Assembly (NCBI GenBank): GCA_025054955.1
Contig: JANWZE010000033.1
Location: 1-39,439, forward strand
Length of the DNA stretch: 39,439 nucleotides
Source: Blastocatellia bacterium
Lineage (GTDB): Bacteria > Acidobacteriota > Blastocatellia > HR10 > J050
Direction of reading: 5' to 3'
Made by a program: the position numbers and the translations under genes. The notes under the pieces are model-generated. The model saw only the letters and a program-made list of their open reading frames with translations, did not search any database and was not told the DNA's origin. Shown piece by piece: positions 31,746 to 37,239 of this stretch. Each line of letters opens with the position of its first letter. Position 1 is the first letter of the stretch.

Positions 31746-31772
31746 TTGCTCGGTGACAGCTTTCGATATAAT
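31746..31772 (+). promoter_or_regulatory. Promoter of the FHA/kinase cluster
   Basis: A perfect TATAAT (31767-31772) preceded by TTGCTC (31746-31751, spacer 15) leads to GGAGG (31792) and the first start codon. This is the only convincing promoter ahead of the four signalling genes. Confidence 0.5.
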
Positions 31773-31811
31773 CTTATGTGCCTGTACCGACGGAGGATTT
31801 CGTTCACGGTG

Positions 31812-32381
31812 ATGATTCAATGCCCTCATTGTGGTGCCGACCTTTTGGACACTGACCTGTACTGCGGCACGTGCGGGATCCGAGTCCAGTCATCGGCGCG
31901 GACTCTAGCCTCTGCCAGACCAAGCGGCCCGGCCTTGCCTAAAACCGATGAGGATGATGAATCGCTGCGCTGGATGCCGAAAACATTAGCCGGCATAGAG
32001 TCAAATCCGGTTGCGCCAACCGAACCACGCGAGTGCAGGCCGGTTGACGCGCCGCCGGCGCGCTTGGTGGTTATTCGTCATGGACAACTTGTGCGCGAAT
32101 TTCCATTGCAGGGAAGCCGCTGGTTGATCGGACGATGGGACCCGCAACGGCGCGTTTTTCCTGATGTGGACTTGGATAATGAGGATCCGGAGGCAACTGT
32201 ATCGCGACAGCATGCCTGTCTGACTTATCAAAATGGGCAGTATTTCATCGAAGACTTGGGCAGCACCAATGGCACGTTCATCAATCGTGGGCATCGGCTC
32301 ATTCCGGGACGGCGTTATCTGGTCGAGGACGGCGATGAGATTATCGTTGGCAAAACGTTTTTGAAATTGGTGATTGGATAA
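31812..32381 (+). CDS. Zinc-ribbon plus FHA domain protein
   Basis: A 189-residue protein. An N-terminal zinc ribbon (CPHCGADLLDTDLYCGTCG) is followed by a Pro/Ala-rich linker and a C-terminal FHA domain from about residue 80. The FHA core shows WLIGRWDPQRRVFPDVDLD, TVSRQHACLTYQNGQYFIE and DLGSTNGTFINRGHR, with the Arg, Ser, His and Asn that bind phosphothreonine. Such proteins read the output of Hanks-type kinases. The kinase gene starts only nine bases downstream and carries the same zinc-ribbon/FHA pair, so this protein is a probable scaffold or substrate. The start is ATG at 31812, or GTG at 31809 which has better distance to GGAGG. Confidence 0.92.
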   Translation: MIQCPHCGADLLDTDLYCGTCGIRVQSSARTLASARPSGPALPKTDEDDESLRWMPKTLAGIESNPVAPTEPRECRPVDAPPARLVVIRHGQLVREFPLQGSRWLIGRWDPQRRVFPDVDLDNEDPEATVSRQHACLTYQNGQYFIEDLGSTNGTFINRGHRLIPGRRYLVEDGDEIIVGKTFLKLVIG

Positions 32382-32390
32382 GACTCCATC

Positions 32391-33977
32391 ATGGCCAGCA
32401 ATATCTGTAACAGATGTGGCGCACCGGCATTTCCCACCGATCTGTTCTGTGGTGAATGCGGCCATGCGCTGGTCAGCGCGCCGGGCGCAAGCGCAACGCC
32501 ACGGCCTGCTACGTCGTCGCCACTGGCTGAACTGCCGCCGGGCATGCTGTTGCAAAACCGCTACGAGATTGTCAAGCGCGTTGGCGGCGGTGGCATGGGC
32601 AATGTGTACAAGGCTTACGATCGCAATCTGGATTATGCGTTGCGAGCCGTCAAGGAGATGATGGAGATGTTTTCTGATCCGTCGCAGCGCGAGAAGGCGG
32701 TGGAAGATTTTCGTCGTGAAGCCAAGCTGCTGGCCAGTTTGAAGCACCCGTCCATTCCGGTCATTTACGATCATTTCATCGAGCACGGGCGCTACTACCT
32801 GGTGATGGAGTTTATCCGAGGTGGTGATTTGATGACCCGCCTGCGGTATGCGCAAGGGCGCGTGCCGGAGCCGGCTGTCACCATGTGGGCGATACAAATC
32901 GCTGATGTGCTCGATTATCTGCATCGGCGTCAACCGCCGATCATCTACCGCGATTTGAAGCCGGCCAATGTGATGGTTGATCCAGATGCCAATCAAGTCA
33001 TGTTGATTGATTTTGGGATTGCCCGCACGGTTGCGCCGATGCAAGCGGGTGTGACGGCTATCGGCACGATGGGCTATGCGCCGCCTGAATTGTTCTCCGG
33101 CAAGGTAGAGCCGCGTTCAGATATTTATTCGTTAGGCGCGACCATGTTTCACTTGTTGACGGGCGTTGATCCGCGTGACAAGCCGCTGCTGATTTTCGAT
33201 TTCACAAAGAATCCCAAGCCGCGCGAACTCTGCCCGGAGCTTACGCCCCGGATGGAAGCGATCATCATGCGGGCTGTCGAATACGAACCGGCCAACCGGT
33301 TTCCCTCGGCGCGTGAGATGAAGATCGCTCTGCAAGAGCATTTGCAACAACTGGAGAAAGAGTCGCCCGAAGAGGTCGAAAAAGCGCAACGTGTGGCGTT
33401 TGGCGAGATCATCCGTGAATCGGGCTATGAGCCTGCTCGTCGAGTGGCCAGTTCATCGTCTTCTTCGTCTGCCGGCTCAGCTTCAATGCCTGTGCCCTCA
33501 ACCTCGTCGCCGGCCGGTTCGGCATCAGCGGCGCCGGCCTCTGAATTGGTGTTTTGCAGTAACTGCGGCACGTCTCTGAATGCAAGCGACCTGTTTTGTG
33601 CGCTCTGTGGCGCGCGCCAACCAATCTCGTTAGATCAAGGTCGCGCCTCAGCCAAGTTGCTCGTGCTTGATCCTCTATCGGGCCAGATACAAGGCTCCTA
33701 CATGCTGGAGAAGCACTCCAGTTTGATCGGTCGGATGGACCCTGTTTCCGGCATCTTCCCGGAGATTGATCTGTCGCCGCTTGACACGGAATCGAAGGTG
33801 TCTCGCCGTCACGCACGGGTGTGGCGGCAGACCAATCAGTTTTTCGTCGAAGACCTCAATAGCATCAACGGCACGCATGTCAATGATGAGTTGCTTGTGC
33901 CGAAGCAACCAGTGCGGTTGAAGGACGGCGATGTGTTGCGTGTTGGCCAGATTCAACTGGTGTTTAAGGAACCATAA
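32391..33977 (+). CDS. Ser/Thr protein kinase with zinc ribbons and FHA domain
   Basis: A 528-residue fusion protein. The domain order is: N-terminal zinc ribbon (CNRC and CGEC, residues 6-23); Hanks-type kinase (about residues 58-317); Ser/Pro/Ala-rich linker; second zinc ribbon (CSNCGTSLNASDLFCALCG, near 388-406); FHA domain (about 420-528). The kinase has a Gly-rich loop VGGGGMGNVYKAYDRN, catalytic Lys88 in LRAVKEM, a YRDLKPANVM loop (Tyr in place of the usual His) with Asp188, and DFG at 207-209. The FHA has SRRHARVWRQ and DLNSINGTHVN. There is no membrane segment, so it is soluble. It would phosphorylate Ser/Thr and also bind phosphothreonine. It is embedded between an FHA protein and an RDD protein, with a phosphatase downstream. 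Confidence 0.95.
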   Translation: MASNICNRCGAPAFPTDLFCGECGHALVSAPGASATPRPATSSPLAELPPGMLLQNRYEIVKRVGGGGMGNVYKAYDRNLDYALRAVKEMMEMFSDPSQREKAVEDFRREAKLLASLKHPSIPVIYDHFIEHGRYYLVMEFIRGGDLMTRLRYAQGRVPEPAVTMWAIQIADVLDYLHRRQPPIIYRDLKPANVMVDPDANQVMLIDFGIARTVAPMQAGVTAIGTMGYAPPELFSGKVEPRSDIYSLGATMFHLLTGVDPRDKPLLIFDFTKNPKPRELCPELTPRMEAIIMRAVEYEPANRFPSAREMKIALQEHLQQLEKESPEEVEKAQRVAFGEIIRESGYEPARRVASSSSSSSAGSASMPVPSTSSPAGSASAAPASELVFCSNCGTSLNASDLFCALCGARQPISLDQGRASAKLLVLDPLSGQIQGSYMLEKHSSLIGRMDPVSGIFPEIDLSPLDTESKVSRRHARVWRQTNQFFVEDLNSINGTHVNDELLVPKQPVRLKDGDVLRVGQIQLVFKEP

Positions 33978-34020
33978 GCGGGTTTCATGCTGAGTGAGTC
34001 GTGGCTTGCCAGATGCTTGT

Positions 34021-34132
34021 ATCACGGACCATGGATCACGAATCACGATCCATGGATCACGAATCACGAATCACGGAGCACGATTCACGACCCACGACCC
34101 ACAGACCACGGATCACGAAGCACGGAGCACGA
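34021..34132. repeat. Heptanucleotide tandem repeat, 16 units
   Basis: Sixteen contiguous 7-nt units with consensus ATCACGA (mostly NNCACGR, with two CCATGG variants), starting at 34021 and ending at 34132. They lie between the kinase stop and the RDD start codon, which is three bases beyond the array. A heptamer is not a multiple of three, and the open frame through it has no protein-like character, so it is non-coding. Heptanucleotide short tandem repeats are known from heterocystous cyanobacteria. Confidence 0.9.
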
Positions 34133-34135
34133 ACA

Positions 34136-34615
34136 ATGACGAATGACCAGATCAAGTTGGCCCCATGGCGCAGTGCTGTCGTGGCTCCGCAGCCTGAGCC
34201 AAGAATCGAATATGCCGGATTTGGTATTCGTTTAGAAGCGGCGTTGATTGACTACATGCTTTGCCTACTCGGCTCGGTGTTTCTGGTCTGGGTCGCTTCA
34301 CTGTTGGCTCGTTACATGAGTTTGACTGCGCTGATGATGGCAGCGGCGTTGGGCTTCACGCTGGTCTTTTTCTTCAATCACATGGGGCTTGGCACTGTCA
34401 CACGACAGACGATTGGCAAATGGATTGTCGGCATTGAAGTCATCAGCGCCGATCGGCAGCCGTTGACACTGTCGCGTCTGCTGGCGCGTTGCACTATTGG
34501 TTATGCTGTGTCGCTGGCGCCATTGGGGCTGGGATTCATCCGTATCCTATGGAATCCAGACCGGCAGGGCTGGCACGATGTAATGTTTGGCACCTACGTG
34601 GTGAGGACGAGATAA
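34136..34615 (+). CDS. RDD family membrane protein
   Basis: A 159-residue integral membrane protein. EYAGFGIRLEAALIDYMLCL shows the R...D motif of the RDD domain, followed by hydrophobic segments LGSVFLVWVASLLARYM, LMMAAALGFTLVFFFNHMGL and SLAPLGLGFIRILW, which is followed by NPDRQGWHD. TRQTIGKWIVGIEVISADR is also typical. RDD proteins are often transporters or signalling partners whose role is not known. The open frame extends upstream through the heptamer array, but the natural start is the ATG at 34136. It lies three bases ahead of the phosphatase gene, so it is probably the membrane component of this signalling cluster. Confidence 0.9.
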   Translation: MTNDQIKLAPWRSAVVAPQPEPRIEYAGFGIRLEAALIDYMLCLLGSVFLVWVASLLARYMSLTALMMAAALGFTLVFFFNHMGLGTVTRQTIGKWIVGIEVISADRQPLTLSRLLARCTIGYAVSLAPLGLGFIRILWNPDRQGWHDVMFGTYVVRTR

Positions 34616-34618
34616 CCT

Positions 34619-36337
34619 ATGCTGAAATTAAACATCAAGTCACCTGGTAAACCGCCGTTCACGGTCAACGCTGACAAAATGCGTATGACGATTGGGCGCT
34701 CGGTGCGGAATGACATCTGTTTGGAAGACCCGTTTGCTTCACGATTGCACGCCGAGTTGCGGATTGAAGGCGATACTTACTGGTTGAGTGATCTGGGGAG
34801 CGCCAACGGCGTCTTTCTGAATGGCCGACGGATCAGCGGCACTGTACAGGTTTTCCCTGGCGACCAGATTCAGATTGGTGAGAGCCTCGTCCAGTTGCAT
34901 CAAGCCGGGGATGTGATGCGCGTTCCTGCCGGCGGGACGACTGATCAACTGCTTGGGCAGGATGTTATTGCTGAACCTCAGATCACCAGGGAACCGACCG
35001 ATCCGATGCAGGTCACATCGGGCCTGCTTTCGATCATTCAGACTGTCAAGAGCGCTTCAGGTGATCGTGAGCCGGTGGAGGCGTTTGAGCATCGCAAGGA
35101 TTTGTTTTCGGTGATGGCGAAAGTCAGTCTGGAATTGCTTTCGCCGTTATCCTTGAACGAAGTGTTGGGGCGCATCATTGATCTGATATTCGAGGGTGTG
35201 CCGGCGGATCGCGCCTATTTGTTATTGCGGGAGGGGAAGGATGGAGAGTTGGTCTGCAAAGTAGCCAGTTATCGTCAGGCACAACCTGCCGGCCAAGATC
35301 GGCAGGTACGTATCAGTCAATCCATCACTAAAGAAGTTGTTGGCAAAGGCCAGGCGGTGTTGACCTCCGATGCGCAACAAGACGAGCGGTTTCGCGGGCA
35401 TCAATCCATCATGCTGGGCAACGTGCGCTCGGTGATGGCTGTGCCACTGTCGGTTAACCAACAGGTCATCGGCATGATTTACGTGGATAGCCCGATGAGC
35501 GTGAACGTCTTCACTGAAGACGACCTGCGCCTGCTGACGACAATTGCCAGCGTGGCCGCCATCAAAATCGAGAACACGCTCTTGCTGGAGCAGCGATTGG
35601 AAAACGAGCGCATGAAGCAGCAGTTGAGCCATGCGCGGGACATTCAGTTTCGCTTGCTGCCCGTCAATCCGCCGCCGTTGCCGGGCTACGACCTGACCGG
35701 CATCAGCTTTCCTTGTTACGAAGTCGGCGGCGACTACTTTGATTTTATCAAACAGCCCAATGGAACAGTTGTCATCGCCTTGGGCGATGTTTCGGGCAAG
35801 GGCATGGACGCGGCGTTGCTTATGTCCAGCCTGCATGCCACGGTGCGCGCGCAAGCTGAAACGAGCCGTTGCGTCGCCGAGCTGGTCGGGCATATCAATC
35901 GCTACCTGAACGGGACGACGCCGCCCAATAAATTCGTCACGCTATTTTGCGCTCAGTTAGATTGCCAAACGCACCAGCTTCGGTTCACCAACGCGGGGCA
36001 TAATCCGCCGTTGTTGATTCGTCGGGGCGGCGAGGTAGTCTACTTGGAAGCAGGCGGACTACCAGTCGGGATCACCGAGTTCATCACGTATGAAGAAGGC
36101 TTGATCACGTTTGAACCCGGCGATGTGCTGATCACCTACAGCGACGGCATCAGCGAGGCGCTCAATCCGCATGGCGAAGAATTCACGGCTGAGCGATTGA
36201 TCCAGGTGGTGCAACAAAACAAGGATTGCAGTGCTGCCCAGTTGCGCGACCGGATTGACGAAGCGTTGCTGCAGTTCATGGGCACGGCCTCGCCGGTGGA
36301 TGATATGACGCTGGTGATTGTGAAACGAACCGAATGA
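34619..36337 (+). CDS. FHA-GAF-PP2C (SpoIIE-type) phosphatase
   Basis: A 572-residue protein with three parts. The FHA domain (residues about 1-100) has MTIGRSVRNDICLEDPFASR, LHAELRIE and LSDLGSANGVFLNGRR. A GAF domain (about 170-315) has SLNEVLGRIIDLIFEG and GNVRSVMAVPLSVNQQVIGM. A coiled linker with QLSHARDIQFRLLPVNPP leads to a PP2C/SpoIIE phosphatase domain. That domain carries YEVGGDYFDFI, LGDVSGKGMDAALLMS (metal-binding Asp), TYSDGISEALN and VDDMTLVIVKR. It would dephosphorylate phospho-Ser/Thr proteins under control of a GAF ligand, with the FHA domain recruiting phosphorylated partners. It is the natural opposing enzyme to the kinase two genes upstream. Confidence 0.95.
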   Translation: MLKLNIKSPGKPPFTVNADKMRMTIGRSVRNDICLEDPFASRLHAELRIEGDTYWLSDLGSANGVFLNGRRISGTVQVFPGDQIQIGESLVQLHQAGDVMRVPAGGTTDQLLGQDVIAEPQITREPTDPMQVTSGLLSIIQTVKSASGDREPVEAFEHRKDLFSVMAKVSLELLSPLSLNEVLGRIIDLIFEGVPADRAYLLLREGKDGELVCKVASYRQAQPAGQDRQVRISQSITKEVVGKGQAVLTSDAQQDERFRGHQSIMLGNVRSVMAVPLSVNQQVIGMIYVDSPMSVNVFTEDDLRLLTTIASVAAIKIENTLLLEQRLENERMKQQLSHARDIQFRLLPVNPPPLPGYDLTGISFPCYEVGGDYFDFIKQPNGTVVIALGDVSGKGMDAALLMSSLHATVRAQAETSRCVAELVGHINRYLNGTTPPNKFVTLFCAQLDCQTHQLRFTNAGHNPPLLIRRGGEVVYLEAGGLPVGITEFITYEEGLITFEPGDVLITYSDGISEALNPHGEEFTAERLIQVVQQNKDCSAAQLRDRIDEALLQFMGTASPVDDMTLVIVKRTE

Positions 36338-36426: not shown

Positions 36427-37239
36427 ATGAGATCGGAGAAAGAGCTCGCCTATCGCTACGATCTGTACATTGTTCCGTACTGGCGCGATGCCTTCGACCA
36501 GATGGTCATCGAACATGTGAAGCTGCCTCAGCAGGGGAACGTGCTGATCGTCAATTGTGGCACGGGCGGGCTGGCGCTGGAGGTGGCCTCATCGCTGGGC
36601 GCGCGGGGCGACGTCATCGCCACCGACCCCTATCCCGAACGCCTCCATCTAGCGCGGGCAAAAGCTGAAGTGAAGAAACTCACCAACGTGTTTTTCTATG
36701 ACCGACAGCCGACGCAGTTGGGCATGGAAGATGAACTCTTTAGTCTGGTCGTAGGCGATGCCGCTTTGATGCCGACCGAACAGATCGAGCCTATGCTCGG
36801 CCAGATGGTGCGGTTGACAGACAGCAACGCGACGGTGGCCTTGCTGATGTTGACGCATGGCAGCTTTGGCGAAATCTTCTCGCTGCTGTGGGAAGCGCTC
36901 TATCACTGCCGGCTCGATCACTATACAGCTTCACTCGAAGCGCTTATCAATGAGCACCCGACAACAACACAGGCGCGGCAGATGATGATGCAGAACGGAT
37001 TGACCCACGTGCACCATTTCACCGAGCGTCGAGAATTAGATTTTGCTTCGGCTCAGGAATTATTTGAATCGCCGTTGGTCGAAGATTATTTTCTCGACCA
37101 CTGGCTCCAGTTCCTTCCCGATAAGGCAACACGTCGAGACGTCATCGGCGCCATGACCGAGATCATTGATCGGGAACGCGGGCAGGCGTATGTGGAGATG
37201 TCGGTCAAGGCCAGCCTCCTGATCGGCCAGCGAGGATGA
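36427..37239 (+). CDS. Class I SAM-dependent methyltransferase-like protein
   Basis: A 270-residue protein whose N-terminal half has a Rossmann methyltransferase core. VLIVNCGTGGLALEVASSLG is the SAM-binding motif I, VIATDPYPERLHLARAKAEV is motif II with the acidic residue, and LVVGDAALMPTEQI is the post-II strand. FYDRQPTQLGMEDELFS falls in between. The C-terminal half contains a helical stretch (SLEALINEHPTTTQARQMMM) and DYFLDHWLQFLPDKATRRDV. Substrate unknown. It begins 89 bases after the phosphatase and overlaps the transporter gene by four bases (ATGA), so it is more closely tied to the transporter than to the signalling genes. Confidence 0.8.
   Translation: MRSEKELAYRYDLYIVPYWRDAFDQMVIEHVKLPQQGNVLIVNCGTGGLALEVASSLGARGDVIATDPYPERLHLARAKAEVKKLTNVFFYDRQPTQLGMEDELFSLVVGDAALMPTEQIEPMLGQMVRLTDSNATVALLMLTHGSFGEIFSLLWEALYHCRLDHYTASLEALINEHPTTTQARQMMMQNGLTHVHHFTERRELDFASAQELFESPLVEDYFLDHWLQFLPDKATRRDVIGAMTEIIDRERGQAYVEMSVKASLLIGQRG

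Follow-up and report, generated by a model that had tools for sequence, protein, structure and literature searches.

What does a bacterium do with a soluble Hanks-type kinase that carries zinc ribbons and its own FHA domain, and that is encoded together with an RDD membrane protein and a phosphatase? The question is raised by four consecutive genes on contig JANWZE010000033.1 of a Blastocatellia bacterium, where we analysed a stretch of 39,439 nucleotides (the window). The source genome is 4.69 Mb and 99.5% complete, and its nearest relatives in a whole-genome search are records named Blastocatellia or Acidobacteria. The genes are all on the + strand, with gaps of 9, 158, and 3 bp, and encode a zinc-ribbon/FHA protein (P1), a zinc-ribbon/Hanks kinase/zinc-ribbon/FHA protein (P2), an RDD membrane protein (P3), and an FHA/GAF/SpoIIE-type phosphatase (P4). 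Pfam, strand, and spacing agree with an initial annotation of the DNA that had recognized four co-directional genes for kinase, FHA, RDD, and phosphatase proteins. That annotation further proposed a self-contained phospho-relay organized around the RDD protein; as discussed below, the first of these ideas survives in part, and any relay need not be organized around RDD.

Conservation of the gene order

The kinase, P1, P4, and RDD were each searched for in 58 genomes from 30 genera and nine families. We then extracted stretches no longer than 20 kb around the matches and classified their genes with purpose-built profiles. P1 is immediately upstream of P2, on the same strand, in 55/55 loci with a complete P2 (our own locus counted). 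The RDD gene follows P2 in 48/48 loci outside one genus, g16, and in 0/7 loci inside it. Wherever the contig extends far enough (52/52 loci), P4 comes next. For the ninth family there is a single incomplete contig (L091), on which the last part of P2 is still followed by RDD and P4 in that order. Conserved adjacency, which the initial annotation had named as a check on its proposal, was thus found. A chance neighborhood was rejected, given that the P1-P2-P3-P4 order is constant while the flanks differ between families. No other nearby gene cluster is comparably common across families, and the next most frequent occur in only one or a few of them. Because the four genes stay together class-wide, they very probably form one signaling unit.

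Among the matches listed for 297 Acidobacteriota genomes drawn, a close kinase occurs in 32 that belong to the same class and in only six from two other families. In these six a PP2C gene adjoins the kinase wherever the contig reaches, and no RDD or SpoIIE genes were detected near the kinase in the stretches examined. A full-text literature search found no published description of the four-gene operon, and the class-wide operon appears to be an undescribed variant of the kinase-FHA-phosphatase operon.

Variants of the operon in relatives repeatedly contain zinc ribbons and FHA domains, which may constitute a shared assembly vocabulary. The RDD protein has an N-terminal zinc ribbon like those of P1 and P2 in families f3, f4, f6, and f9 and in one f7-type record; the ribbon is absent in f1 (the family of the window), f5, and f8. 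Judged from their domain content, these zinc-ribboned RDD proteins strengthen the probable link of RDD to the module. A zinc-ribbon/TPR gene is inserted between RDD and P4 in f8 and part of f9, and a PrsW-protease/FHA gene is added after P4 in f3 and f8 (coordinates of the two kinds of addition: L092:11858-13123, L106:8123-9820, and L110:7627-9396). Directly upstream of the operon in f6, f7, and f9 is a PP2C gene that encodes a kinase-like/PP2C fusion, and the Binatota have a zinc-ribbon/kinase-like/PP2C gene and another kinase downstream of the P1-P2 pair. The kinase part of the fusion is without RD and DFG motifs in those sequences that were read, and the protein is possibly a pseudokinase-regulated phosphatase. 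A close homolog is encoded elsewhere in the genome in f4, and other families have only more distant PP2Cs. The zinc ribbons on RDD, TPR, and kinase-like/PP2C proteins and the FHA domain of the PrsW protease encoded beside P4 can be read as fusion evidence for the unit.

The kinase-like/PP2C proteins encoded next to the operon (three families) or next to the kinase pair (Binatota) are ~600-690 amino acids (aa) long (L100:4828-6678, L141:13454-15280, and L222:10138-12201). In f5 (L099, L103, and L119), a divergent conserved gene set (c3, c4, c5) precedes the operon; it is not upstream of it in other families.

Domains and residues of the four proteins

P1 (31812..32381, 189 aa) consists of a zinc ribbon (C4..C21, 31821..31874) and an FHA domain (32061..32372; Pfam FHA 1.4e-16), as identified by Pfam (Zn_Ribbon_1 and FHA) and by alignment of orthologs. 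The four cysteines and FHA residues R108, S131, R132, H134, N153, and G154 are invariant in 50/50 aligned orthologs, and the AlphaFold2 (AF2) model of the FHA domain matches GarA/OdhI FHA structures. The start is most likely ATG 31812 rather than TTG 31746, because P1 orthologs begin MI/MR-x-C.

P2 (32391..33977, 528 aa; Pfam Pkinase, Zn_Ribbon_1/3, and FHA) is ~70-73% identical to orthologs of the same family and ~50-60% identical to those of other families of the class. Its kinase domain (32562..33350; Pkinase 2e-42) is of the Hanks Ser/Thr type, with the GGGGMG loop, the lysine of RAVKEM, YRDLKPAN, and DFG ~98% conserved. The activation segment, GVTAIGTMGYAPPE in the window, is nearly invariant across orthologs as GVTAxGTMGYAPPELF, and both T222 and T226 are invariant (alignment A1). 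An N-terminal zinc ribbon (C6..C23, 32406..32459), visible in the sequence as CxxC..CxxC, occurs in 39/56 orthologs. The cysteines of the second ribbon (C389..C406, 33555..33608; Zn_Ribbon_1 3.4e-8) are 100% conserved. In the C-terminal FHA domain (33678..33968; Pfam FHA 9.9e-16), the residues G-R, S-R-x-H (SRRH here), and N-G-T are nearly invariant.

P4 (34619..36337, 572 aa) has, according to Pfam, an FHA domain (34661..34903; 7.3e-20), a GAF domain (35147..35572; GAF_2 1.7e-15), and a SpoIIE/RsbU-type phosphatase domain (35759..36328; PF07228, 1.5e-50). Key residues of the phosphatase motifs GGDYxD, GDVxGKG, SDG, and DD are ~96% conserved, and key positions of the FHA residues and metal-site motifs are 94-100% conserved. 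The closest solved chains to the catalytic domain are a response-regulator phosphatase (3es2/3eq2), Rv1364c, and SpoIIE. Assignment of P4 to the Stp/PstP type (group I PP2C) was rejected, as there is no match to PF13672 or PF00481 at E<=0.001. Both PF13672 matches of the source genome are on other contigs than the operon.

The initial annotation was right to place FHA domains in all three soluble proteins and a CxxC..CxxC ribbon in P1 and P2, and its list of domains is right overall, but it took the phosphatase for a PP2C and its starts for P1 and P3 differ from ours. The three soluble proteins look active, because their catalytic, metal-site, zinc-ligand, and phosphothreonine-reading residues are conserved.

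P3 (34136..34615, 159 aa) belongs to the RDD family by its match to PF06271 (about 3.5e-20), and R32, D39, and D148 are invariant in 31 sequences. ATG 34136 is its most likely start codon. A longer frame from GTG 34001 was rejected because the extension is only read-through of a degenerate heptamer array (34021..34134, consensus ATCACGA), which Tandem Repeats Finder (TRF) places on the + strand between P2 and the RDD gene. This repeat is dispersed genome-wide over many contigs (44 forward and 43 reverse 20-mer matches with <=2 mismatches, versus 0 in a reversed-pattern control), and we take it to be reminiscent of the heptanucleotide STRR repeats of cyanobacteria.

A methyltransferase gene (36427-37239) lies 89 bp 3' of P4, and the same gene cluster follows P4 in genomes G001 and G003; therefore, the operon may be one gene longer in this order. 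Elsewhere in the source genome are two more phosphosignaling clusters, one of FHA, PP2C, and kinase genes (L233:8514-16008, G000:C50) and one of a kinase and a double-FHA gene (L234:3468-6111, G000:C104).

Proposed mechanism and its rivals

How might the unit work? We assign a probability of roughly 0.5 to the four genes being one cytoplasm-and-membrane Ser/Thr phosphorylation unit that operates as follows. P2, the soluble zinc-ribbon kinase, would self-activate via the conserved threonines of its activation loop and then phosphorylate its module partners. P1 would be a small adaptor or effector, similar to ArnA and to GarA/OdhI, and the FHA domains of P1 and P2 would read the phosphothreonines so formed. 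The zinc ribbons common to these proteins probably serve as a tag that aids assembly of the complex. The RDD protein could be a phosphorylation-controlled membrane output or anchor. P4 would be recruited by its own FHA domain, with its activity set by input through the GAF domain, and would dephosphorylate a partner or a downstream target. We infer these phosphotransfer and binding steps; the gene order, the domain content, and the active-site, phosphothreonine-reading, and zinc residues are observed.

Several findings weigh against this proposal. The seven loci of genus g16 keep P1, P2, and P4 without an RDD gene. Because one genus lacks it, the RDD protein cannot be an obligatory hub, contrary to the relay around RDD that had been envisaged. 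P4 is outside the class of phosphatase that usually reverses Hanks kinases. In f6, f7, and f9 a true PP2C is encoded beside the operon and P4 is still present. No conserved phosphorylatable threonine motif was found when the P1 linker and the RDD tail were searched for one, which leaves the activation loop of P2 as the only recognized candidate target within the module. The initial view that a PP2C in the operon reverses the kinase therefore lacks support on two counts, the SpoIIE/RsbU type of P4 and the occurrence of true PP2Cs next to the operon in these three families and next to P1-P2 in Binatota. That PP2C and P4 coexist in the three families speaks against P4 being simply "the" reversing phosphatase. 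Of the single self-contained phospho-relay, what stands is one gene unit kept throughout the class; a closed relay is unproven, because P4 is of the SpoIIE/RsbU and not the Stp/PstP type.

The known substrates of SpoIIE/RsbU-family phosphatases are so far mostly STAS anti-anti-sigma proteins. The strongest rival, which we consider possible if rather unlikely, builds on such a substrate and divides the operon into two linked pathways. P1 and P2, with or without RDD, would form a kinase/adaptor pathway, and P4, an RsbU-like enzyme recruited by its FHA domain, would have as its substrate a STAS anti-anti-sigma protein from another locus. The output of the kinase would then be gene control by partner switching. 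The catalytic domain of P4 fits this division, being of the SpoIIE/RsbU type and nearest to the response-regulator phosphatase and Rv1364c, and HATPase_c_2 (RsbW-like) proteins were found in 30/30 relatives checked. P4 is also retained where a PP2C adjoins the operon; therefore, the two phosphatases probably have separate jobs. However, the gene-neighborhood comparison recognized no STAS or RsbW-like gene within the conserved unit, and among the HATPase_c_2 matches listed for the 30 genomes only one (in G023) is within ~15 kb of the module.

Two further readings are less probable. P1 could be a transcription regulator of the ArnA/ST1565 type that is bound to DNA when unphosphorylated and released by P2, in which case the operon would control a regulon and not act via RDD. 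The FHA protein ST1565 is reported to bind DNA, at the archaellum promoter, unless phosphorylated (PMC5300886), and P1 resembles ArnA from end to end. Yet the FHA domain of P1 is just about as close to the enzyme-binding proteins GarA/OdhI, and neither Pfam nor the neighborhood comparison found a gene for the vWA partner ArnB in the conserved unit; we regard a regulator role as quite unlikely. That the adjacency reflects shared ancestry and general co-regulation only, with products that do not interact directly, is highly improbable, given that the four genes but not their flanking genes are kept between families and that zinc ribbons and FHA domains recur in added or alternative members. We favor the model of a single phosphorylation unit.

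In that model the RDD protein would be the membrane component, and previous reports give its family several roles. An RDD protein of Halobacillus is reported to be a Na+/H+ antiporter (PMC5996927). A Bacillus RDD protein inhibits the protease SppA (PMC7568657), and the RDD domain reportedly contains an intramembrane site that faces the cytoplasm and whose role is unknown (PMC12419801). The AF2 model of P3 has a pLDDT of 89, and its only notable family of PDB matches is to the retrotranslocon Pex2-Pex10-Pex12 (7t92, all three chains; Foldseek probability 0.87-1.00, E 0.036-0.57). VIA-align superimposes the model on the best 7t92 chain with a Z of 10.6 and a root-mean-square deviation of 2.8 over 127 residues, and the next entry has a Z of 4.1. 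A search of 20 whole genomes with Pex2_Pex12 (PF04757) gave five sub-threshold matches, two of them in RDD proteins, namely the module RDD of G018 and another RDD protein of G019, the latter being the best of the five. Direct PF04757 scans of RDD proteins gave E values of 0.0045-0.3, under the cut-off and in inconsistent registers. Pex chains were not found in PDB sequence searches with the RDD protein, a BFVD fold search with it gave no match, and a literature search found no paper that links RDD to Pex2, Pex10, or Pex12. Because helical membrane folds can reach such Z values by chance, the match is a lead and not a result. Based on the model, it is conceivable, if doubtful, that the module RDD shares ancestry with the transmembrane domain of Pex2/Pex10/Pex12, which would make the operon a kinase/phosphatase-controlled bacterial relative of the retrotranslocon gate, often with a zinc-binding domain in the same protein chain, as in the peroxins. 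If the fold match is true, a bacterial relative becomes available for the peroxisomal retrotranslocon.

Relation to known systems

The operon has stayed intact throughout a class of soil and hot-spring bacteria that are abundant and hard to culture, and it very probably governs a central process. It ties the poorly understood RDD membrane proteins to phosphosignaling, and indicates that SpoIIE phosphatases guided by FHA domains occur alongside Hanks kinases. The set of kinase, FHA proteins, and phosphatase is compact and mostly soluble, and suitable for in vitro reconstitution.

The module shares its domain vocabulary with the Binatota cluster, which has the same P1-P2 pair, and with the clusters of the few other Acidobacteriota, which combine the same kinase type with a PP2C. 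Both differ from it in having a true PP2C, and no RDD or SpoIIE gene is present in the stretches examined. The same operon logic of Hanks kinase, FHA protein, and phosphatase is seen for PknB/StkP with the Stp/PstP PP2C and FhaA/FhaB, and the kinase domain of P2 is closest by sequence to PknB-type kinases. Compared with PknB/StkP, however, P2 is without PASTA domains and carries zinc ribbons and a C-terminal FHA domain on the kinase itself, and the phosphatase is of the SpoIIE type. P2 was rejected as a PASTA kinase, because Pfam finds no PASTA domain and the score against NF033483 is 211.4 bits, versus a cut-off of 450.

P1 is similar to ArnA of Sulfolobus. Both have an N-terminal CxxC..CxxC ribbon followed by one FHA domain, and they align from end to end (phmmer 1.5e-9, residues 2-174 of P1 as query). 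ArnC is the kinase for both ArnA and ArnB, whose complex is dissociated by PP2A (PMC7472852). The Arn system differs in that it includes the vWA protein ArnB, uses PP2A as its phosphatase, lacks an RDD protein, and belongs to an archaeal host.

The closest bacterial analogy is the actinobacterial PknG-GarA/OdhI-GlnX system, which likewise has a soluble kinase with a Cys-rich metal domain and, as its partners, a small FHA protein and a membrane protein (PMC8546545). Among bacterial solved structures, those of GarA/OdhI are most similar to the FHA domain of P1. Unlike PknG, P2 carries its own FHA domain; the RDD protein is not GlnX, and a SpoIIE phosphatase is added. Neither the PknG rubredoxin (PF16919) nor a TPR domain was found in P2 by Pfam, so P2 was rejected as a PknG, and P1 was rejected as a GarA/OdhI at 42.5 bits against the NCBIfam OdhI equivalog cut-off of 200. 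Because curated cut-offs or defining domains fail in this way, we describe the module as one that works like the Arn and PknG-GarA/OdhI systems rather than as a member of either.

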